Positions 1,040 to 9,278 of a stretch of DNA of 9,278 nt are shown here, one piece after another (within the stretch, counting starts at the first letter, position 1; each line of letters starts with the position of its first letter). The notes under the pieces were generated by a model. It was given only the letters and a program-made list of their open reading frames with translations. It was not told the origin of the DNA and did not search any database. The DNA is from Chloroflexota bacterium (lineage in GTDB: Bacteria > Chloroflexota > Anaerolineae > Anaerolineales > Villigracilaceae): the NCBI GenBank assembly GCA_021823555.1, contig JAKANW010000069.1, positions 1-9,278 on the forward strand. Direction: 5' to 3'. A program made the position numbers and the translations under genes.

Positions 1040-1210
1040 ATGGTCAAAGACCCTGTTTGCGGTATGACGATTAATCAGCAGGCTAACGTCATCACCACCC
1101 AGTATCAAGGAAAGACGTATTACTTCTGCTCGCAAATGTGCAAGATGATGTTCGAGCGCGAGCCTGAGAAGTACCTCAAGGCCGAAAATAATCAGGAGCA
1201 GACTCCATGA
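1040..1210 (+). CDS. Small YHS-domain protein (56 aa)
   Basis: The 56-aa protein starts at ATG 1040 with GAGG at 1031-1034, five bases upstream. It is essentially one YHS domain (PF04945-type): it opens MVKDPVCGM, continues with YQGKTYYFCSQMC, and ends with the family-typical FEREPEKYL. The three Cys, at 7, 30 and 34, are the presumed metal ligands. YHS domains occur alone or at the ends of heavy-metal P-type ATPases and related proteins, and are thought to bind metal; a metal is not shown here. There is no signal peptide or membrane segment, so it should be cytosolic. Its TGA overlaps the next ATG (ATGA at 1207-1210), a sign of translational coupling. It is the first of four YHS modules in the window. 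Confidence 0.88.
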   Translation: MVKDPVCGMTINQQANVITTQYQGKTYYFCSQMCKMMFEREPEKYLKAENNQEQTP

Positions 1211-2172
1211 CCGAACCCAGAATCGAAGAATCCCCCGAACCTGTAAGTGAAGCTTCTGTCGAGAATCGAAGGATCAGGATAACGGCATGGACTGTCATCG
1301 CCCTTGTGTTGGTCTTTCTTGGCGGACTCGGAAGCGGGTATCTCCAGTGGGGCCGCGACGAGACCGCCCAAGCCGCGCGCGAGAAGCAACTGACGCGGCT
1401 CTACGAGCAGGTCAACCCATCAGAGGGATACACCCTCGGAGTCACGTACGCCGATCTCGGACCTCAACTAGTCGAAGCGGGCGTCATTGATTACAACTCC
1501 TTCCTGCGCGTCATGTCCGCCAGCGGAGACGCCATCAGCAACCGTCAGATTGATATTTTGAAGCAGGGCAGTGACGAAGAAATAGTCATCACACGCGAAA
1601 ACGCCCACTTCCTGCTCAACTTTTTCTGGGCGGTGGGACTCGCCAACAAAAATTCGATTCTCACCGATGGAATGATGGTGCAATACAGCGAGGGTCAGGT
1701 CGAACGCTTCGCTTCCACAGGCGGCTGGACTTTGGCAACCAAACCGATCACCGACATCTACGCCAGCCTGGACTTGATTCCGCTCACCGCCGAGCAGCAA
1801 GCCCGAGTCGAGGAGGTGGCCGCGGCGGTCTACCGTCCGTGCTGCAACAATCCCACCCTCTTTCCCGATTGCAATCACGGCATGGCCATGCTTGGTCTGC
1901 TGGAGTGGATGGCCTCAAACGGCGCAACAGTTGACGAAATGTTCGAGGCCGCGAAATACTTCAACGCATTTTGGTTCCCACAGCAGAATCTTGAAATTGC
2001 CATGTATCTCCAAACCAGTCAGAATATAGATTTCGAGGATGCCGAGCCGCGGCAAATCGTCAGCGCGCAATTCTCGTCCGGGTCTGGGGCTACCATGGTC
2101 CATCAGCAATTGCAGGCAAGTGGTGTATTGCCTCAGGCACCGAGTGGTCAAGGCGGCAGTTGCGCGAATTGA
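1207..2172 (+). CDS. Membrane-anchored protein of unknown function with CC-x8-C-x-H motif
   Basis: A 321-aa protein, started at ATG 1207, which overlaps the YHS stop; AGGAG lies at 1194-1198. Residues 1-26 are acidic then basic, followed by one hydrophobic helix at about 27-47, so it is probably an N-terminally anchored protein with the bulk outside. The segment 50-200 looks helical and lacks a recognised motif. At 209-258 is a striking block, YRPCCNNPTLFPDCNHGM, then LLEWMASNG and YFNAFWFP. Its C212, C213, C222 and H224 are good candidates for a metal or haem-independent redox site. It is not a CxxCH cytochrome motif. The tail is Gly/Ser/Gln-rich and ends GGSCAN with a lone Cys at 319. I do not recognise the family. 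Its place between a YHS gene and an ABC exporter suggests metal binding or delivery at the outer face (inference only). Confidence 0.85.
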   Translation: MTEPRIEESPEPVSEASVENRRIRITAWTVIALVLVFLGGLGSGYLQWGRDETAQAAREKQLTRLYEQVNPSEGYTLGVTYADLGPQLVEAGVIDYNSFLRVMSASGDAISNRQIDILKQGSDEEIVITRENAHFLLNFFWAVGLANKNSILTDGMMVQYSEGQVERFASTGGWTLATKPITDIYASLDLIPLTAEQQARVEEVAAAVYRPCCNNPTLFPDCNHGMAMLGLLEWMASNGATVDEMFEAAKYFNAFWFPQQNLEIAMYLQTSQNIDFEDAEPRQIVSAQFSSGSGATMVHQQLQASGVLPQAPSGQGGSCAN

Positions 2173-2184
2173 CATGGAGGTTCG

Positions 2185-2412
2185 ATGAACAGAAAGCACA
2201 TTCGAAGACAAGCGCCGGCTCCGGAACGCAAGGAGTGGCCTGCTGTAGTTTACTTCTGGGGATTCGGGCTGGCAATTATCGGCTACCTCGTCGGCAGGAT
2301 GGCGCTGAACGCCTTGCCCCACCCTTATCACTGGTTATCCGGTCTGGTTGGCGGATTGGCTGGAATCCCCATCGGCTGGTTGTGGTATCACTGGAAAGGC
2401 GACATGTTTTAG
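2185..2412 (+). CDS. Small two-helix membrane protein, unknown function
   Basis: A 75-aa protein from ATG 2185 with GGAGG at 2176-2180. The N-terminus is basic (RKHIRRQ). Two hydrophobic segments at about 20-40 and 50-68 are separated by a short loop (ALPHPYHW), and the end is WYHWKGDMF. Gly-rich packing (VGGLAGIPIGW) is typical of small helical hairpins. It starts 12 bases after the CC-x8-C-x-H gene, and its stop lies within the ribosome site of the permease that follows, so it is likely co-expressed and could be an accessory subunit of the ABC exporter. No family is recognised. His46, His49 and His69 lie near the membrane edges, but no binding role can be claimed. Confidence 0.8.
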   Translation: MNRKHIRRQAPAPERKEWPAVVYFWGFGLAIIGYLVGRMALNALPHPYHWLSGLVGGLAGIPIGWLWYHWKGDMF

Positions 2413-2423
2413 GAGAAGCGTCC

Positions 2424-3523
2424 ATGTCCCTTGCGCGGCGCAATCTCTTTCAAGATAAAACACGACTCGCCTTGAGCGTCGGCGGGGTGGCGCTGGCTGT
2501 CATGCTGATTCTCATTATGACTGGCTTCCTGGAGGGGATGAATCGCCAGATCACTTCATACCTGGATCATTCGGACGGCTCGATCATCGTCGCCCAAAAG
2601 GGGATCAGCAACCTGCTCGGCGCGACCTCCCTCCTGCCACCTCACGTCGAATCGGACGCCGAGGCGGTTGAGGGCGTCGCAGACGTGATCCCCATCCTTT
2701 CGCAATTCATCATCCTCGACCTGCATGGCAAGAAACAGCCCGTCTATTTGATCGGCTACGATACCGAGCAAGGCGGAGGTCCGTGGGAGATTGTCGAGGG
2801 ACGCGCGCCGCAAACGGACGATGAGATCATCCTCGACCGCATTCTGGCGCAACGACATGACATTTCGCCCGGTGACCAAATCGAAGTGATGGGCAAAGAG
2901 TTCACTATCGTCGGCTTATCCGACGGGACGACCTCCTGGATGACCAGCTTTTTATTCATGTGGAAAAGTGCAGTGGAGATTCTCTTGCGCACTCCGGGGG
3001 CGGTCAGTTTCCTTTTGGTGGAGCCCGCTCAGGGTCAGGAAAGAAGCGAGGTTGTCGAGCGGTTGAATCGGCTCGAGGGGTCAACGTCCTGACCAAAGAA
3101 GACATGAAGTCCAATGACATCAAATTGTTCGCGCGCGTCTTTTCCGCGCCGCTGCGTTTGATGATCGGGATTGCGTTTCTGGTGGGAATCATGGTGGTCG
3201 GGCTGGTGATTTACACGGCCACGATTGAACGACAGCGCGAGTACGGCGTATTGAAAGCGATTGGCTCATCGAACCGTGTGCTGTATGGCGTGGTGACCGC
3301 GCAGGCGTTGTTCGCGTCGCTGGCTGGCTCGCTGACGGGAATCCTGTTGGCGTACGGCGCGGCGGATTTGATCATGTCGCTTCGTCCGCAATTCCTGATC
3401 GTCTTCGACCCCGCGGACATGGCCTGGGCGCTCGCCGCGGGACTTGGCATGGCGCTGGCCGCGGCGCTCTTCCCTGTGCGCGTGATTGCAGGGCTGGCTC
3501 CAGCGGAGGTCTTCCGAAAATGA
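2424..3523 (+). pseudogene. FtsX/MacB-type ABC permease, broken by a frameshift at the GGGG at 3077-3080
   Basis: The start is ATG 2424, with AGGAG at 2411-2415. The first frame runs to a TGA at 3090-3092 and the permease then continues one frame back to a TGA at 3521-3523. Adding one G to the GGGG at 3077-3080 restores a 366-aa protein, against 370 aa for the paralogue next door. The join then reads LEG/VNVLTKED, matching DGVTALP in that paralogue. The first part holds TM1 (about 17-37, SVGGVALAVMLILIMTGF) and an extracytoplasmic MacB-like domain. The second holds three helices, the REYGVLKAIG coupling segment typical of FtsX permeases, and a C-terminal PAEVFRK. The cause may be a homopolymer sequencing error, a true mutation, or less likely -1 recoding; no classic slippery heptamer is seen. 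The permease would pair with the one downstream and the YHS-tailed ATPase. Confidence 0.85.
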
Positions 3524-4632
3524 TCCGTCTCGCATTTAGCAATCTCTTTCAAAACAAGACGCACTTGTTGATTTCCGTGGGTGGCGTGTCGCTGGCGTTG
3601 CTGTTGATCCTCGCGCTCGACGCGATCTTCACGGGCGTGGAACGGCAGACCACCGCGTACATTGACAACAGCGGCGCGGATATTTTCGTAGCGCAAAAAG
3701 ATGTGCGCAACATGCACATGGCTTTTTCATCTCTACCGATTTCTGTGGTGGATGAAGTGAAGGCTGTGGACGGTGTAGAGGAAGTCACGCCGATCTTGTA
3801 TCTGAGCAACATGATCGTGGTCGGTGACGAACGCACACTGGCTTACGTGATCGGGTCGCCTGAAGACGCCACAATGGGCGCGCCGTGGAAGATGAGTTCG
3901 GGCAAACGCGTTCCTGAATCGGGCGAGGCAATCATTGACCAGCGCGTCGCACAAAAGTCGGACGTGAAACTCGGAGACACGGTCGAGATTCTGGCGCACG
4001 AGTTTACCGTGGTGGGCTTTTCGCAGGAGACGACCAACATCGTCAACTCGATAGCCTTCATCCCCGCCGCGGACTTTCAAGCCTTGCGCGGCAATTCAGG
4101 TGTGGTCAGTTACGTGCTGGTCAGAATCCGTTCGGGGGTAGAGGCGGAAGCGGCCGCGTCGCGGATCGAAGATGAAGTGGACGGAGTCACCGCGTTGCCG
4201 CGCGCCGCGTTTTCGAGTCAGGAAGCGCGCGTCGTCAAAGACATGAGCACGGACGTGATCGCCATTATGAACTCGATTGGCTTTTTGATTGGGTCGGCGG
4301 TGATGGCGCTGACTGTTTACACCGCCGTGCTGGCGCGTCGCCGTGAGTTTGGTGTGTTGAAAGCGCTCGGCGCGCGCAACGGACATTTGTATCGCGTCGT
4401 GCTGGCACAGGCGTTGATGAGCGTGCTTCTCGGATTCGTCATCGGACTGGCATTCACGCTTTTGATCTCGTTCATCGTCCCGCGCCTGGGTTTGAGCATG
4501 ACGCTGGAGGTCAGCCGCGCTTCGCTCGTCAAGGTCGGAATCGTTTCGTTGGTGATCACCGCGCTCTCTGCTATCCTTCCCATCCGACAGATCGCGGGTC
4601 TCGATCCCGCGCTGGTCTTCCGAGGAAAATAA
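3520..4632 (+). CDS. FtsX/MacB-type ABC transporter permease
   Basis: A 370-aa membrane protein beginning at ATG 3520, overlapping the previous stop (ATGA at 3520-3523), with GGAGG at 3505-3509. The order is: a short cytoplasmic start (RLAFSNLFQNKTH); TM1 at about 16-36; an extracytoplasmic MacB-like domain (about 40-245) rich in beta-strand-like sequence; then TM2 (249-271), TM3 (298-320) and TM4 (336-356). The cytoplasmic RREFGVLKALGA after TM2 is the FtsX-family segment that contacts the ATPase. It ends PALVFRGK. Four helices with one large external loop define the type VII/MacB-like exporter fold, which moves substrates across or out of the membrane by mechanical coupling. It is clearly a paralogue of the preceding broken permease, so a heterodimer is likely. 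No MacA-like adaptor gene is in view. Substrate unknown. Confidence 0.92.
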   Translation: MIRLAFSNLFQNKTHLLISVGGVSLALLLILALDAIFTGVERQTTAYIDNSGADIFVAQKDVRNMHMAFSSLPISVVDEVKAVDGVEEVTPILYLSNMIVVGDERTLAYVIGSPEDATMGAPWKMSSGKRVPESGEAIIDQRVAQKSDVKLGDTVEILAHEFTVVGFSQETTNIVNSIAFIPAADFQALRGNSGVVSYVLVRIRSGVEAEAAASRIEDEVDGVTALPRAAFSSQEARVVKDMSTDVIAIMNSIGFLIGSAVMALTVYTAVLARRREFGVLKALGARNGHLYRVVLAQALMSVLLGFVIGLAFTLLISFIVPRLGLSMTLEVSRASLVKVGIVSLVITALSAILPIRQIAGLDPALVFRGK

Positions 4633-4633
4633 A

Positions 4634-5461
4634 ATGACAACTGCAACCCTGCAAATCAACCACGTCAGCAAACGTTACGGCGTGGGCGCGACCGAAGTGA
4701 CCGCCGTGCGCGACGTGTCCCTGTCCGTTTTGCCAGGTGAGATCGTGCTCATCATGGGACCCTCGGGTTCGGGCAAGACCACCCTGCTTTCAATGTTGGG
4801 CGCTTTGCTCAAACCCACTGACGGAGAGATTCACCTCAACGGCACGGTCATCAGCGCGCTGGCCGAGAACCGTCTGCCAGATATTCGACTCAAGCAATTT
4901 GGTTTCGTCTTTCAGGATTTCAACCTTCTGTCTGCGTTGACCGCGCTGGAGAACGTCTCCATCGTGGCGGAACTCGCGAGAACCAAGGCGGGCGAGGCGC
5001 GACGAAAATCCGCTTCCCTGCTGACGGAACTTGGGCTGGGCGAACGCCTGAATTTCCTTCCCGAAAAGTTGTCGGGCGGAGAAAAACAACGCGTGGCGAT
5101 TGCGCGCGCTTTGATCAACGACCCGACCCTCATCCTGGCCGACGAACCGACCGCCAACCTGGATTCCAAGATCGGCCACGAGATCATGCGTCTGTTGCGA
5201 AAGATCGCCAAGGAGCAGCGACGCAGTGTCGTCATCGTCTCGCACGACCAGCGGATTCAAGACATCGCCGACCGCGTCCTGTGGCTGGAGGACGGTCAAT
5301 TCAAGGAAATGGTCACAATGGCAGTTGACCCTGTCTGCGGAATGTCCGTGCAACGCGAGAAGGCTTTGCACGTGGAATGGAACAGCCGCGGGTTTTACTT
5401 CTGCGCGCGCGGTTGCAGGGATGAGTTTCTTTCCGATCCCCACAAATTTATCCAAGTCTAA
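4634..5461 (+). CDS. ABC transporter ATPase fused to a C-terminal YHS domain
   Basis: A 275-aa protein from ATG 4634, one base after the permease stop, with GAGGA at 4622-4626. Residues 1-225 are a complete LolD/MacB-type ATPase: Walker A GPSGSGKT (42-49), Q-loop Gln94, signature LSGGE (146-150), Walker B LILADE (166-171), H-loop His204. All catalytic residues are intact. The usual end of such ATPases ([11 protein letters not shown]) is followed directly by a YHS domain (229-275): [14 protein letters not shown] and DPHKFI, with Cys at 235, 257 and 261. LolD-type proteins are normally about 220-235 aa, so the YHS is an addition of about 45 residues. The likely job is to power the two upstream permeases while sensing or receiving a metal through the YHS tail (inference). 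An internal ATG at 5318 could also give a free YHS peptide. Confidence 0.93.
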
Positions 5462-5745: not shown

Positions 5746-6383
5746 AACGGTTTCTCTACGCAAGTTCAATTTTGTTCGTCTTGTTCGCCGCCTTGTTCAC
5801 GGCTCCCGCGCCCGCGCGCGCCAGCGAAGGGGATGGCGGACATGAACTGACGGCGGAGGTGAACGGCTACCACGTCACCCTGTCCAGCCAGAACGAGTGG
5901 GCAAAGGGCGAGAACGTTTTGGTGGTCACGATTGCCGACTCGATGGGCATGCCCCTTCGCGACGCGGAGGTGGAGATCCTTGTCGCGCCGAAAGATGGGC
6001 ATGCCGAATCGGGCGAGGACGCGATGCCAGAGATGGACATGGGGAACGACCAGCCGCAGGGACCAGAACCTGGCGTGATGAAGCCAGTTGCGAATAATGA
6101 TTCTGAACACGATGAAAAATCCGCAAGCCCAATTGCGATGACCGAATCGGAACATGGTGTGTATACCGTTCAAACCCATTTCGAATCCTCGGGCGAACAT
6201 GACGTGCATGTGATGTTCCATGTGAACGGCGAAATGTTGCAGGCCGATTTTGTGGTGAGCGTGAAAGGTTCCAATTCCAAATCCTTTGTGTTGGGAAGCT
6301 TCGCGGCAATCAACGTTGCGATTGTGGCCGCGGCTGGCGCGCTGAAAAAACAAAAAAAACTTACTGCGAAAGGCGGAAAATAA
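5742..6383 (+). CDS. Exported FixH/YtkA-like protein with Met/His-rich insert and C-terminal membrane anchor
   Basis: A 213-aa protein starting at ATG 5742 with GGAGG four bases upstream. Residues 1-28 are a signal peptide (KR, a hydrophobic stretch, cleavage expected after ARA). The segment 34-83 (HELTAEVNGYHVTLSS, then NVLVVTIADSMGMPLRDAEVEI) and the segment 136-176 (HGVYTVQTHFESSGEHDVHV) form a beta-sandwich pattern like YtkA/FixH domains. Between them, about 86-137, is a low-complexity insert rich in Met, His, Asp and Glu, including AMPEMDMG, suited to copper or other soft-metal binding. A helix at about 182-200 and a Lys-rich tail anchor the C-terminus. FixH (CcoH) works with FixG in copper supply to cbb3 oxidase, and here a FixG/NapH-like gene starts one base after the stop. 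Family membership rests on pattern and context, so it is moderate. Confidence 0.7.
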   Translation: MKRFLYASSILFVLFAALFTAPAPARASEGDGGHELTAEVNGYHVTLSSQNEWAKGENVLVVTIADSMGMPLRDAEVEILVAPKDGHAESGEDAMPEMDMGNDQPQGPEPGVMKPVANNDSEHDEKSASPIAMTESEHGVYTVQTHFESSGEHDVHVMFHVNGEMLQADFVVSVKGSNSKSFVLGSFAAINVAIVAAAGALKKQKKLTAKGGK

Positions 6384-6384
6384 A

Positions 6385-7764
6385 ATGGCGGCCGAACTCC
6401 GACCTCAAAACAAAAGCGTGTTCGCGGGAGGCAATCTCCTGCAAATCAAATTCATTGACAGATTCATGCGAAGCCGATGGTTTCCAGGAATCATCCAATG
6501 GCCAACCCTGATGGCTTTCATGGTCATCATGTTTCAACTCCTGCTCGGACCCGAATCCGCGCACGACAACCTCGGCACCGCGCTGACCTGGGTATTGTGG
6601 TGGCCGCTCATCCCGATCATCTTCCTGTTCCTCGGCCGTTTCTGGTGTGCCATCTGTCCGTTCGCTACAATCAACGATTTGGTTCAGAAATTTGTCGGCA
6701 ATAATCGTCCAGTTCCCAAGTTCCTCAAGAAGTATGGAATCTGGATCATTGACGCGCTCTTCATCTTCATCACGTGGAGCGACCACGTGTGGGGCGTGGT
6801 GGAAAATCCCTTCGGCTCCGGCGTGCTGATGCTCACGCTCACGACGGGCGTGATCGCCTCCGGTTCGTTCTTCGAACGGCGGACGTTCTGCCGTCACATC
6901 TGCTTCCTCGGCGGTCTTTCTGGCAACTACGCGCGGACGGGGATGCTGGCCCTGCGCGGCACGCCCGAAATTTGCGCCACCTGCACCGCCGCCTCCTGCT
7001 TCAAAGGCACGGACAAAGCGCCGGGTTGCCCGCTCTTTGAGTTTCCCAAAACGATGACCTCCAACGCCAACTGCGTGGTCTGCGCGGATTGCATCAAGAA
7101 CTGCCCGAACGACTCGATCCAGCTTACCGTCCGCCCGCCGACGAAGGAACTGTGGTTCATCCGCAAACCCAAGATGGAAGAGGCGTTTTTGTCAGCGGTC
7201 ATTATGGGCATCGTCTTCGTCCAAAATGTGACCATGCTCGAAGTGTGGGGCGGCATGTTGAAGTGGCTGGAAAACGCGGTCGGCACGACCAATTACGCGG
7301 TCACGTTCAGCATTACCTTCGCGATTGCGATCATCATCCCCGTGTTGTTGCTGGGAATCACCTCCTGGATCGCGGGCAGGTTCAACAAGACCAGTCTGGT
7401 GGAAAACTTCACCCGCTTCGGCTACGCCATCATCGCATTGGATGTGGCCGCGCACATCGCCCACAACCTTTTCCACTTGCTTGCGGAAGGCAAGTCCATC
7501 TTCTACACCGCCATCGCATTGTTCGGGCAGGAAGTCCACGGCGCGTCGCCCGCGCTGGTGAGCATGGAGACCATCCAGATCCTGCAATTCGGGCTGATCG
7601 GACTGGGCTTTATCGGCTCGCTCTACGCCGCCTATCGCATTGCCAAATCAAGCCACCCCAACGGCAAAGCCTGGACGACCTTCGCGCCCTTCGCGGTGTT
7701 GATGGTGATTCTCACCGCAATGAACATCTACTTGTTCATACTCCCCATGGCGATGCGCATGTAA
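6385..7764 (+). CDS. NapH/CcoG(FixG)-like membrane 4Fe-4S polyferredoxin
   Basis: A 459-aa integral membrane protein from ATG 6385, one base after the FixH-like stop. Hydrophobic helices are at about 38-55, 67-86, 116-132 and 144-160, then after a soluble core at about 266-285, 304-327, 344-366, 397-418 and 432-454. Cys motifs are in order: CAICP (88, 91); CRHIC (169, 173), as in the Fer4_5 membrane motif of NapH, NosR and CcoG; then C197-C200-C205-C215P and C230-C233-C236-C240P. The last two groups are enough for two 4Fe-4S clusters. HIAHNLFH (357-364) in a late helix could bind haem or metal. The family moves electrons across the membrane, and CcoG is reported to reduce Cu(II) for oxidase assembly. 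It lacks CcoG's C-terminal Ig-like domain and has extra helices instead, closer to NosR/NapH. The electron acceptor is unknown. Confidence 0.88.
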   Translation: MAAELRPQNKSVFAGGNLLQIKFIDRFMRSRWFPGIIQWPTLMAFMVIMFQLLLGPESAHDNLGTALTWVLWWPLIPIIFLFLGRFWCAICPFATINDLVQKFVGNNRPVPKFLKKYGIWIIDALFIFITWSDHVWGVVENPFGSGVLMLTLTTGVIASGSFFERRTFCRHICFLGGLSGNYARTGMLALRGTPEICATCTAASCFKGTDKAPGCPLFEFPKTMTSNANCVVCADCIKNCPNDSIQLTVRPPTKELWFIRKPKMEEAFLSAVIMGIVFVQNVTMLEVWGGMLKWLENAVGTTNYAVTFSITFAIAIIIPVLLLGITSWIAGRFNKTSLVENFTRFGYAIIALDVAAHIAHNLFHLLAEGKSIFYTAIALFGQEVHGASPALVSMETIQILQFGLIGLGFIGSLYAAYRIAKSSHPNGKAWTTFAPFAVLMVILTAMNIYLFILPMAMRM

Positions 7765-7842
7765 GCGTGTCCCAATATAGGCAATTTGGCTCTCATCAAT
7801 CCAGAACAAATATCGGAGAATAAAGTTGAAAGGAGATTAATC

Positions 7843-8022
7843 ATGGCTCAAACCTTCAAAGACCCCGTCTGCGACATGGATGTCACGCCCGAGACCGCGG
7901 CAGGCAAGTCTGAGTACAACGGTCAGACCTACTACTTCTGCTCGCTCGGCTGTAAGAAAGCATTCGACAAGGAGCCTGAAAAGTACCTCGGTAAAGCCGA
8001 CGAAAACGCACACCATCATTAA
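7843..8022 (+). CDS. Small YHS-domain protein with His tail (59 aa)
   Basis: ATG 7843 has AAGGAG (7830-7835) seven bases upstream, an excellent site; a TTG at 7786 in frame would add a non-conserved extension and is rejected. The 59-aa protein is a single YHS domain: DPVCDM, YNGQTYYFCSLGC, and FDKEPEKYL, with Cys at 10, 33 and 37. The common DPVCGM reads DPVCDM here, placing an Asp beside the first ligand. The tail ENAHHH ends in three His, which may add a metal site. No export signal is seen. It lies 78 bases behind the polyferredoxin gene and is probably on the same transcript or a strongly translated part of it. It is closest in form to the 56-aa YHS protein at 1040. Confidence 0.9.
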   Translation: MAQTFKDPVCDMDVTPETAAGKSEYNGQTYYFCSLGCKKAFDKEPEKYLGKADENAHHH

Positions 8023-8041
8023 GTCGTTTCTCTTCTCCTCG

Positions 8042-8068
8042 AATAGCCTGTCCAAAAGGCAGGCCATT
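8042..8068 (+). terminator. Imperfect hairpin, possible terminator after the YHS gene
   Basis: GCCTG-T-CC, then a loop AAAA, then GG-CAGGC, forms a seven-pair stem with a bulged T, with AAT/ATT able to pair outside it. It starts 20 bases after the YHS stop. It resembles the strong hairpin at 9050 in placement, but is followed by CCGCTTGTTTT rather than an immediate T run, so termination would be weak or partial. Confidence 0.4.
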
Positions 8069-8184
8069 CCGCTTGTTTTCGCCTGGAAAAATCCTGATAT
8101 GAACCTTCACTCACTCTTTGTCCCACCTTTACGACTTCTTTAAACTCACCTGATATTCTTGGATCATCGAGAAAGGAGCAAAGC

Positions 8185-8358
8185 ATGTTTCTTATGTGGA
8201 TATTCCCATTACTGCTGATCGGATTGATCGTCTATGCCGTCTCTGGAAATAACTTCGCCAACATTTTCAAACCCGCCGCCAGTCGCGCCTGCCCTCACTG
8301 CCAAAAGCCCACGCAGAGCGACTGGAATACCTGCCCGCACTGCGGACAGGTGTTATAA
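8185..8358 (+). CDS. Small membrane-anchored zinc-ribbon protein (57 aa)
   Basis: ATG 8185 is preceded by AAGGAG at 8173-8178, six bases upstream. The 57-aa protein has one N-terminal helix at about 2-19 (MFLMWIFPLLLIGLIVY), a short linker, then a zinc ribbon with CPHC (36-39) and CPHC (50-53), ending CGQVL. The ribbon is nearly the same as the one at the end of the protein at 8689: both have a DWN/DWK-x-CPHCG pattern. That points to a duplicated module put on different membrane anchors. The ribbon probably faces the cytosol. The function is unknown; zinc ribbons of this type often mediate protein contacts, and a metal-storage or sensing role is possible but not shown. The next gene's ribosome site overlaps its stop. 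Confidence 0.83.
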   Translation: MFLMWIFPLLLIGLIVYAVSGNNFANIFKPAASRACPHCQKPTQSDWNTCPHCGQVL

Positions 8359-8368
8359 GGAGGTCCCC

Positions 8369-8653
8369 ATGTGTGGCTGTATGTTGATGCACGCGGCGAT
8401 GAATCATGAAGGACACCAGCCCGTTTCGCAACCTGGGAGCGCACCTGTCATGGCCGCGAGCGCGTCCAATACCAAATGCGCGCATTGCGGATTTCCCCTG
8501 CAACAAGGATATGCCTTCTGTCCCAGTTGCGGAATGAGTTTAGGAACTGCGAAATGTCCCGCCTGCGGACAAAAGGTTGATTCCAATTGGAGCGCGTGCG
8601 CCTACTGCGGTTCACCTCTCGGCGAGACGTTGAAAGTTGAAGCGCATCATTAG
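8369..8653 (+). CDS. Double zinc-ribbon protein with Cys/Met/His-rich N-terminus (94 aa)
   Basis: ATG 8369 has AAGGAGG at 8357-8363 that overlaps the upstream stop; an upstream ATG at 8234 lies inside the previous gene in another frame and has no ribosome site. Residues 1-16 read MCGCMLMHAAMNHEGH, a cluster of 2 Cys, 4 Met and 3 His that looks like a metal-binding tail. After a Ser/Ala/Pro linker come two zinc ribbons: C37-C40-C51-C54 and C63-C66-C77-C80, as in double zinc-ribbon (DZR-type) proteins. It ends EAHH. There is no membrane helix, so it should be soluble and cytosolic. It lies between two membrane-anchored zinc-ribbon proteins and is probably co-translated with the first. The function is not known. 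Confidence 0.85.
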   Translation: MCGCMLMHAAMNHEGHQPVSQPGSAPVMAASASNTKCAHCGFPLQQGYAFCPSCGMSLGTAKCPACGQKVDSNWSACAYCGSPLGETLKVEAHH

Positions 8654-8688
8654 TTTCACTGCGCTGTAAAAAGAAAGGATTTACTCCA

Positions 8689-9027
8689 ATGAAAAAGACT
8701 AACTGGTTGGTAGTTGCGATTGTCGGAATCCTCACTCTCCTGTTCCTGTTCTGGATCGGCACAATGATCGGCGGATGGGGCTACGGCGGCTATGGAATGA
8801 TGGGCAATTGGGGCTACTCCCCCTTCGGCTGGTTCGGAATGGGATTCGGGATGCTCTTCATGTGGCTGATCCCGATCGGCGTCATCGCGCTTATCGTGTA
8901 CGGTGTTGTCGCGCTGACAAAAAATGCGGGAAACAATGCCCCCGCATCCTCCACGCCTTGCCCCAACTGCGGAAAAAGCGTGCAAGCCGATTGGAAGAAC
9001 TGCCCCCACTGCGGCACGACGTTGTAA
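8689..9027 (+). CDS. Two-helix membrane protein with Gly/Tyr-rich loop and C-terminal zinc ribbon (112 aa)
   Basis: ATG 8689 follows AAAGGA at 8674-8679. The 112-aa protein has TM1 at about 6-26, a loop of Gly, Trp, Tyr, Phe and Met (28-54, with GWGYGGYGMMGNWGYS), TM2 at about 55-76, and then a linker. A zinc ribbon follows, with CPNC (91-94) and CPHC (105-108). The aromatic and Met-rich loop lies on the side opposite the N- and C-termini, probably outside, and the ribbon lies inside. The ribbon matches the 8185 protein closely (ADWKNCPHCG against SDWNTCPHCG). The Met and aromatic residues in the loop could bind soft metal or help pack helices; this is inference. The 35-base gap before it has no terminator, so the three zinc-ribbon genes form one unit ending at the hairpin at 9050. 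Confidence 0.85.
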   Translation: MKKTNWLVVAIVGILTLLFLFWIGTMIGGWGYGGYGMMGNWGYSPFGWFGMGFGMLFMWLIPIGVIALIVYGVVALTKNAGNNAPASSTPCPNCGKSVQADWKNCPHCGTTL

Positions 9028-9049
9028 CAGAAGATTTATCCTGCAACTC

Positions 9050-9078
9050 AATGGCCTATCGAAAAGATAGGCCATTTT
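9050..9078 (+). terminator. Rho-independent terminator after the zinc-ribbon genes
   Basis: A perfect 11-base-pair stem, AATGGCCTATC (9050-9060) with GATAGGCCATT (9066-9076), encloses a GAAAA loop. TTTT (9075-9078) follows at the stem base, then GCTTATAT. It begins 23 bases after the zinc-ribbon stop at 9027 and has no other coding role. The short T run means efficiency is not certain, but the stem is the best hairpin seen in the window. Confidence 0.8.
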
Positions 9079-9123
9079 GCTTATATGGAATCAGGCTGAA
9101 AATCGCTCCCTCCTGTTGTCTAA

Positions 9124-9135
9124 TGGATATATACT
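9124..9135 (+). promoter_or_regulatory. Weak promoter candidate (-10-like TATACT) before the last YHS gene
   Basis: After the terminator, the AT-rich stretch holds TATACT at 9130-9135, a 5-of-6 match to the -10 consensus, 29 bases before the ATG at 9165. No good -35 box lies at the usual distance, so an activator or a different sigma factor would be needed. A promoter is expected here because the terminator separates this gene from the zinc-ribbon unit. Confidence 0.25.
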
Positions 9136-9164
9136 AACGCAATCTCTTGATAAGGTAGGCAACC

Positions 9165-9278
9165 ATGACTGTCCGTGACCCTGTATGTGGAATGGAAATC
9201 GAACCCCAAAGCGCCTCCGCTCTTCGCGAACACATGGGGCAAACGTTTTATTTTTGCTCACAATCCTGCGTGGAACAA
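9165..9278 (+). CDS. YHS-domain protein or YHS-headed metal ATPase, 3'-truncated
   Basis: ATG 9165 has a modest AAGGTAGG upstream, and 38 codons are visible before the window ends. They form most of a YHS domain: DPVCGM at 5-10, then GQTFYFCSQSC, with Cys at 8, 31 and 35. An N-terminal YHS followed by several membrane helices is common in heavy-metal (copper) P-type ATPases, and a stand-alone YHS protein of 50-60 aa is the other reading. Sequence beyond 9278 is needed to decide. If it is a P-type ATPase, the window would hold FixH-, FixG- and FixI-like elements in a row. It follows a strong terminator and so probably has its own promoter. Confidence 0.85.
   Translation, partial: MTVRDPVCGMEIEPQSASALREHMGQTFYFCSQSCVEQ

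Follow-up and report, generated by a model that had tools for sequence, protein, structure and literature searches.

An ABC transporter ATPase fused to a YHS domain in Chloroflexota: a possible motor of a copper-responsive FtsX-type transporter

Introduction

HrtBA is a haem exporter of the type VII ABC class and has one permease gene. It exports a metal cofactor and has no YHS domain, whereas the locus described here has two different permeases. LolCDE is alike in combining two FtsX permeases with one ATPase, and relatives of the present system lie near Lgt and Lit genes; however, the ATPase described here has a YHS domain. DevBCA and MacAB show another likeness: the ATPase matches the DevA model best, the permease fold matches MacB best, and one relative (locus L016) has a HlyD-type adaptor.

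According to the excerpted text of PMC4626032, the adenylyl cyclase of Mycobacterium phlei has a C-terminal YHS domain after an 8-residue linker and is a copper-dependent enzyme, and Zn, Fe, Cr, Co and Ni cannot substitute for copper. The ligands proposed there are D178, C181, C204 and C208. The YHS domain described here has the same aspartate and three cysteines with a middle spacing one residue shorter, and its partner is an ABC ATPase instead of a cyclase. In Campylobacter, FetA bears a YHS domain and its gene adjoins those of FetBCD, a putative ABC unit with two permeases (excerpts of PMC10783030); in FetABCD of C. jejuni the YHS domain is on FetA and not on the ATPase, whereas here it is on the ATPase. 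Furthermore, a Gram-positive mobile copper element with hosts such as Enterococcus and Listeria brings together an efflux pump, a copper oxidase, a metallochaperone, a second lgt and lit2, and the excerpted parts of the report do not name an FtsX-type ABC transporter (PMC8689077).

Here we describe an ABC ATPase with a C-terminal YHS domain, encoded behind two FtsX permease genes. The individual parts are of known kinds, and their combination was not found in the open-access papers searched. A search of that literature, with subscription papers and preprints outside its scope, found no description of an ABC ATPase-YHS fusion architecture. Databases already list some of the fusion proteins, simply under the name ABC transporter ATP-binding protein.

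Architecture of the fusion protein

The window is the whole stretch of DNA that was analysed (9,278 nucleotides). Loci and genomes compared with it carry L and G numbers. The fusion gene and its parts are as follows.

4634..5461, + strand, ABC ATPase with a C-terminal YHS domain; single frame, ATG to TAA, 275 aa
4757..4783, + strand, Walker A GPSGSGKTT, residues 42-50, from the sequence; pattern in 108/109 listed relatives of at least 260 aa
4913..4915, + strand, Q-loop Gln94, from the sequence; almost invariant across aligned relatives
5069..5083, + strand, ABC signature LSGGE, residues 146-150, from the sequence; in 108/109 listed relatives of at least 260 aa
5129..5146, + strand, Walker B LILADE, residues 166-171, from the sequence; in 109/109 listed relatives of at least 260 aa
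5243..5245, + strand, H-loop His204, from the sequence; invariant in a 50-row alignment
5297..5326, + strand, linker, residues 222-231, from LEDG to the first putative YHS ligand; length 10 in 118/120 listed proteins
5324..5452, + strand, YHS domain, residues 231-273; Pfam PF04945, E 1.1e-8
5327..5329, + strand, Asp232, putative metal ligand; conserved, analogous to D178 in the excerpts of PMC4626032
5336..5338, + strand, Cys235, putative metal ligand; conserved, equivalent to C181 in the same source
5402..5404, + strand, Cys257, putative metal ligand; conserved, equivalent to C204 in the same source
5414..5416, + strand, Cys261, putative metal ligand; conserved, equivalent to C208 in the same source

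The first-pass annotation had described complete ABC motifs followed by a three-cysteine YHS domain in one unbroken frame, and Pfam and the sequence motifs confirmed this. In a Pfam scan of the ORF 4634-5461, ABC_tran covers residues 26-174 (E 4.4e-34) and the YHS domain scores 35.3 bits, above the Pfam cut-off of 30.3. All ABC ATPase motifs are present, as in the type VII or MacB-superfamily ATPases. The same annotation had called the ATPase LolD/MacB-type, which holds at superfamily level only: the protein scores 222 bits against a LolD cut-off of 308. Its top-scoring profile is DevA, at 245 bits and below the cut-off of 296, so that it is not a DevBCA ATPase by this measure either. The second permease, the only one scanned with the LolC/E profile, scores 38 bits against a cut-off of 362. 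MacAB-type tripartite systems also differ, because the window proteins scanned include no HlyD-type adaptor and ATPase and permease are separate genes.

Five AlphaFold2 models of the fusion were made; the best has a mean pLDDT of 81.8 and the others range from 76 to 56. In the best model residues 231-270 have a pLDDT of about 85-93 and the Walker A region 56-59. The sole match of the YHS piece among PDB sequences was phenol hydroxylase (E 0.08-0.09). A linker of fixed length would be better suited to mechanical coupling than a loose tether.

The locus and its paired permeases

The other genes of the window and the permease residues discussed below are as follows.

2-586 and 590-1024, + strand, DsbA-like thioredoxin-fold protein (start cut by the window) and rhodanese; profile scans
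1040..1210, + strand, small stand-alone YHS protein; YHS E 1.1e-18
1207..2172, + strand, 321-aa protein; hydrophobic stretch at the N-terminus and CCNNP..CNHG motif, both features seen by eye
2185..2412, + strand, 75-aa hydrophobic protein; homologues close to the fusion in L002 and L004
2424..3523, + strand, FtsX1, first FtsX permease; frame change at about 3071-3092 here, one ORF in most relatives
3520..4632, + strand, FtsX2, second FtsX permease, 370 aa; MacB_PCD and FtsX domains
3712..3720, + strand, Met65-His66-Met67 of FtsX2, candidate Cu(I) site; first extracytoplasmic loop
4243..4245, + strand, Met242 of FtsX2; long helix 228-271, second membrane helix
5742..6383, + strand, YtkA-like protein; Pfam
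6385..7764, + strand, NapH-like protein with a Fer4_5 domain; homologue close to the fusion in L112
7843..8022, + strand, second small YHS protein; YHS E 1.3e-19

FtsX1 and FtsX2 overlap by four bases (3520-3523), and FtsX2 ends at 4632, one base before the fusion. Thus the three genes are tightly packed. The frame change in FtsX1 means that the locus as sequenced is not wholly intact; in most relatives FtsX1 is a single ORF of about 365-370 aa, and the break in the window might be a sequencing error or real.

Of the 20 scan loci that have upstream sequence, 19 show a pair of FtsX genes ahead of the fusion, although FtsX1 of L003 is only a 185-residue piece. L016 has a single split permease and an HlyD gene. 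Both permeases were also found in 11 of 13 sampled Chloroflexota genomes with the fusion, and in the other two the locus is cut by contig ends. This bears out the prediction of paired FtsX permeases made in the first-pass annotation. L081, described below, has one permease. The same annotation had expected small YHS genes to be constant company. This is true in the window, but a further YHS match lies within 20 kb in only 5/12 genomes, and P-type ATPases or a second fusion account for part of these extra matches.

The protein at 1207-2172 belongs to a family with 6384 matches at E<=1e-3 among 7999 scored, which is unnamed in Pfam; a Pfam domain was found in 0/120 listed homologues and no function emerged. 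At 8185-9027 lie three small zinc-ribbon proteins in tandem, and similar ones are close to the fusion in L002.

Conservation and spread of the fusion

Residues 222-275 of the fusion were used as the query of a homologue search that gave 211 matches, of which 120, including the window's own protein, were listed. PF00005 and PF04945 are both present in 120/120 of the listed proteins, so that the database check for joint ABC_tran and YHS architectures proposed by the first-pass annotation came out in favour of the fusion. The pattern D-x2-C..C-x3-C is likewise retained in 120/120 listed proteins. Where the source of a listed protein names an organism, it is Chloroflexi or Anaerolineales in all cases. 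A fusion confined to a single assembly is ruled out, since many assemblies have it and cluster P0004 alone comprises 42 contigs from five sources. The constant 10-residue linker (118/120) also rules out an assembly artefact or a lost stop codon as the explanation of the fusion.

We also scanned one genome per species, which gave at least 597 stretches and 575 relatives, and retained the best 80 loci. Among these 80, 21 are fusions (L001-L021). Their hosts are mostly Chloroflexota, with Thermoleophilia, Microgenomates, Nocardioides, another Actinomycetota MAG, Oceanospirillales and Nevskiales in addition. The ORF of L014 is split by a frame change and that of L020 is truncated at the contig start. 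For the other 59 loci the match itself lay mainly in the YHS part, and for L051 in the ATPase tail only. The fusion is also found on a Rhodococcus plasmid (L081). Among 400 sampled Chloroflexota genomes, 13 match across the domain junction and 96 match the query anywhere; the sample includes its centre G001, which was picked for having the fusion, and in some of its genomes the scoring covered only 15 candidates. In a fourteenth candidate, G141, both permeases are present and the contig stops within the ATPase.

Some unusual forms were seen. In the Thermoleophilia locus L006 the fusion is followed, about 10 kb downstream, by a second protein of that genome (19275-20075) with the end of ABC_tran and a YHS domain; only residues 127-274 of this second protein match the fusion family. 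In P0060 the end of FtsX2 is joined to ABC-YHS on a single 1458-base contig. Single polypeptides with FtsX, ABC and YHS parts in L117 and L123 were rejected because the long ORFs come from over-extended starts.

Lineage of the ATPase

The ATPases of the fusions are 54-91% identical to that of the window, compared with 41-50% for 20 same-genome controls and four comparison ATPases. In a tree of 56 rows, from which the fragments L020, L116 and L118 were excluded, 30/32 fusions form one supported group (96/85), with the deep order of the tree uncertain because of long branches. The two Pseudomonadota fusions, L019 and L021, pair with the YHS-less ATPase of a Thermococcus plasmid (97/89), and the Nitratidesulfovibrio ATPase L128 and the Chloroflexota control L133 stand in the same unresolved fork as this pair. 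This split placement fits one or two origins of the fusion. The plasmid locus, L127 of Thermococcus peptonophilus, has one FtsX permease together with the YHS-less ATPase, whose gene is flanked by heavy-metal P-type ATPases and a TRASH protein.

Copper genes near the fusion

No P-type ATPase, CsoR, Lgt or Lit was found among the window proteins scanned (9.3 kb); the link to copper comes from relatives. Within 10 kb of the fusion, a P-type ATPase was found in 11/32 genomes (1.03 expected, p 2e-9), Lgt in 11/32 (0.58 expected, p 3e-12), a multicopper oxidase in 6/32 (0.42 expected, p 2.5e-6), Lit in 5/32 (0.17 expected, p 5e-7) and FTR1 in 1/32 (0.14 expected, p 0.14). The places used were 150 listed of 202 matches for P-type ATPases, 98/100 for Lgt (two second pieces out), 28/28 for Lit, 66/80 for multicopper oxidases (14 second domains out) and 23/26 for FTR1 (three second pieces out); expected values come from the full match numbers. 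The counts include degenerate copies with stops, namely Lgt in G005 (one count) and a multicopper oxidase in G418.

The p-values assume an even genomic spread and independent genomes despite kinship, so the control ATPases are the better guide. Near the 52 next-best ATPases of the same genomes, P-type ATPases were found twice within 10 kb (1.60 expected), and Lgt, multicopper oxidase, Lit and FTR1 were found in none. At wider range the controls gave Lit 1/52 (15 and 20 kb), multicopper oxidase 1/52 (20 kb) and P-type ATPase 2/52 (10, 15 and 20 kb alike). The YHS profile matched 0/52 control stretches and 20/20 fusion loci. Thus, as in a copper-resistance island, copper genes are commoner near the relatives' fusions than by chance and than near control ATPases. 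Among the P-type ATPase matches listed (150 of 202), none lies within 20 kb in 12/32 genomes, for which short contigs and the shortened list account in part.

CPC is the Cu(I) motif of P-type ATPases. We read 13 P-type ATPases in the loci: 10 have CPC, one CPH and one CPD, and one is a fragment without the region. Pfam confirmed a CsoR-type repressor in L016, a cupredoxin in L004, multicopper oxidases in L007 and L017, Lgt in L013 and Lit in L001. L004 also encodes a small HMA protein that scores 22.8 bits, slightly short of its cut-off of 24.8. Genes that we assigned by reading to response regulators and kinase-like proteins turn up repeatedly near the fusions.

In the Microgenomates locus (L016, 6967-8344) the CsoR-type repressor and an HlyD-type adaptor adjoin the permease and the fusion. 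Lit is close to the fusion in L001, L112 and L113 (upstream) and in the genomes G001, G017, G043, G143 and G344. With Lit beside the fusion in these, and Lgt close to it elsewhere, such neighbourhoods are similar to the Gram-positive mobile copper element that carries lit2 and lgt. When plasmids were searched with Lit, one unannotated Arthrobacter record was returned and gave no further lead.

A Met-His-Met site in the second permease

Met-His sites are suited to Cu(I). The model of FtsX2 (pLDDT 85.9) has helices at 13-44, 228-271, 287-323 and 333-359 and a domain at 55-227, with a predicted membrane position, and Met-His-Met lies in the first loop after strand 55-59 of this extracytoplasmic domain. 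With four transmembrane helices, a large extracytoplasmic domain between TM1 and TM2, and fold matches to MacB, LolE and HrtB, FtsX2 belongs with the type VII permeases. In the fold search MacB was best by E-value, and MacB and LolE outrank HrtB by this measure; the top TM-score among the 50 listed matches is that of HrtB (PDB 7W78; 0.69 by query length, rmsd 4.8, rank 8 by E-value), and a pneumococcal FtsX transporter reaches 0.68. HrtB is also the best profile match of FtsX2 among solved permeases.

In the alignment of FtsX2, His66 is kept in 30/32 rows, Met67 in 29/32 and Met242 in 30/33. The pattern [ML]H[ML] stands at the aligned place in 30/33 FtsX2 rows, 0/28 FtsX1 rows and 0/25 control ORFs; a pattern search found 29 FtsX2 rows (L021 was missed) against the 30 by alignment. 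The control FtsX ORFs came from 17/20 control loci and L127-L130; L127 is counted both in the 33 FtsX2 rows and in the 25 controls, and ORFs holding two FtsX units were aligned once. Met-His-Met is absent from the permeases of the Rhodococcus (L081) and Thermococcus (L127) loci, and L016 could not be scored at that place. Control L163 has LHL at a different place in the protein. No cysteine occurs in 30/33 FtsX2 rows and in 24/28 FtsX1 rows. These results suggest that the Met-His-Met of FtsX2 is a candidate copper contact.

One locus, L172 of genome G244 (6147-9224), has two permeases with Met-His-Met and an ATPase 62% identical over residues 5-222, and no YHS was found within the 11 kb examined. 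The permease site is thus independent of the YHS domain. This suggests that Met-His-Met is earlier or stands by itself, and it gives YHS the look of a control part added on. Next to the L172 set lie a hemerythrin, a protein kinase and an FG-GAP protein, and no copper gene was recognised among the ORFs of these 11 kb. Weaker relatives in G303, G362 and G368 have neither Met-His-Met nor YHS. L172 offers a natural comparison for the role of YHS.

A proposed copper-responsive transporter and its alternatives

The neighbourhood in 32 genomes, the four putative ligands resembling those of a copper switch and the Met-His-Met of FtsX2 together indicate that the metal is most likely copper, and we are fairly confident that the fusion system is linked to it. 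The first-pass annotation had proposed a metal-gated or metal-exporting FtsX-type transporter. The metal link of that proposal is well supported; a gating or a cargo role stays conditional. The cyclase precedent and the fold matches of FtsX2 to MacB, LolE, HrtB and pneumococcal FtsX favour a copper-responsive type VII transporter, probably a pump that is switched or fed by copper. The full reading, in which the fusion is the motor of such an FtsX-FtsX-ABC transporter with YHS as its switch in copper defence, is about evenly poised.

Under this reading the fusion ATPase would drive a three-gene FtsX-FtsX-ABC transporter of the MacB superfamily with a role in copper defence. On its short fixed linker, the C-terminal YHS domain might bind copper through Asp232, Cys235, Cys257 and Cys261. 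Copper-bound YHS would then alter the ATPase activity, most likely switching it on as cytosolic copper rises. ATP-driven motion of both permeases would work at the outer face of the membrane, where Met-His-Met and Met242 of FtsX2 may bind Cu(I) or a copper-carrying ligand for expulsion. The steps differ in strength: that YHS acts as a switch could go either way, and that copper or a copper-bearing ligand is the cargo is a tentative proposal. It is equally tentative to see here another type of bacterial copper exporter in addition to P1B-ATPases and CusCBA. In it, an ABC-driven FtsX pair would draw Cu(I), or a lipoprotein or lipid loaded with copper, out of the outer leaflet by way of Met-His-Met, and a copper sensor that forms part of the ATPase would switch the motor.

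If the reading is true, copper controls or loads an ABC motor via a built-in domain, and the copper clusters of Chloroflexota include a transporter type not found in the open-access literature searched. FtsX-type transporters, the lipoprotein enzymes Lgt and Lit, and copper would then meet in one neighbourhood, where one could test why lipoprotein enzymes occur in copper islands.

The Lgt and Lit genes might instead point to a LolCDE-like machine that extracts lipoproteins or lipids when copper poisons lipoprotein N-termini, with YHS as a sensor and copper not as cargo. Within 10 kb, Lgt (11/32) and Lit (5/32) are found near the fusion and in 0/52 cases each near control ATPases, and FtsX2 has better E-values for LolE and MacB than for HrtB. 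According to excerpts of PMC8689077 and PMC7387801, lit2 and a second lgt accompany copper efflux genes on the Gram-positive mobile copper element, and diacyl-lipoproteins are proposed there as a target to which copper binds. However, the ATPase and the permease fall under the LolD and LolC/E cut-offs, neither enzyme was found among the window proteins scanned, and Met-His-Met would suggest direct metal contact at the permease. We consider such a machine unlikely.

Copper would be the cargo itself if the YHS domain were a dock that takes Cu(I) from a chaperone and passes it to the permease. YHS domains at the N-terminus of P-type ATPases close to the fusion in L008 and L013, the two small YHS proteins of the window and the Met-His-Met of FtsX2 are consistent with this direct export. 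Type VII transporters are not known to use a cytosolic entry route, which speaks against it, as does the retention of Met-His-Met without YHS in L172. The permeases are also nearly cysteine-free, so that no thiol relay is visible. Direct export is therefore quite doubtful.

The YHS domain might be passive and structural, sensing nothing and perhaps serving as a zinc knuckle to stabilise the ATPase. A crystal of toluene-4-hydroxylase has a YHS domain without bound metal, as noted in the excerpts of PMC4626032. But the four putative ligands are retained in 120/120 listed proteins (of 211), and the copper neighbourhood in relatives is strong. We judge a passive role improbable.

A Fet-type iron system, in which an FtsX-FtsX-ABC unit would aid redox-driven iron uptake and YHS would have been relocated from FetA to the ATPase, is very improbable. 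The arrangement of Campylobacter FetBCD beside FetA (PMC10783030, in excerpt) and an FTR1 gene 7.9 kb from the fusion in G017 are in its favour. However, FTR1 is found within 20 kb in only 1/32 genomes (0.29 expected), and two FetD-type ATPases, recognised by the FtrD-like gene and permeases preceding them, are 41% identical to that of the window and group with controls in the tree, apart from the window's ATPase. These counts and this grouping disfavour an iron role. Met-His-Met is absent from the permeases of the FetD-type systems. A FetA-type protein in L124 (589-1983) has a C-terminal YHS domain (59.7 bits) without cysteines (DPISGTQM..YFFES), so the YHS of Fet systems may bind metal differently.

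Least probable is a dual product, in which an internal start at the conserved Met229 additionally yields a free YHS copper chaperone: Met stands at this position in 115/120 listed proteins (of 211) and AAGGA precedes its ATG in the window, but the remaining five have V, V, L, R and I, and the divergent fusions L006, L009, L017 and L018 have L or R, encoded by non-start codons, which fit a hydrophobic contact at this position better than a start.
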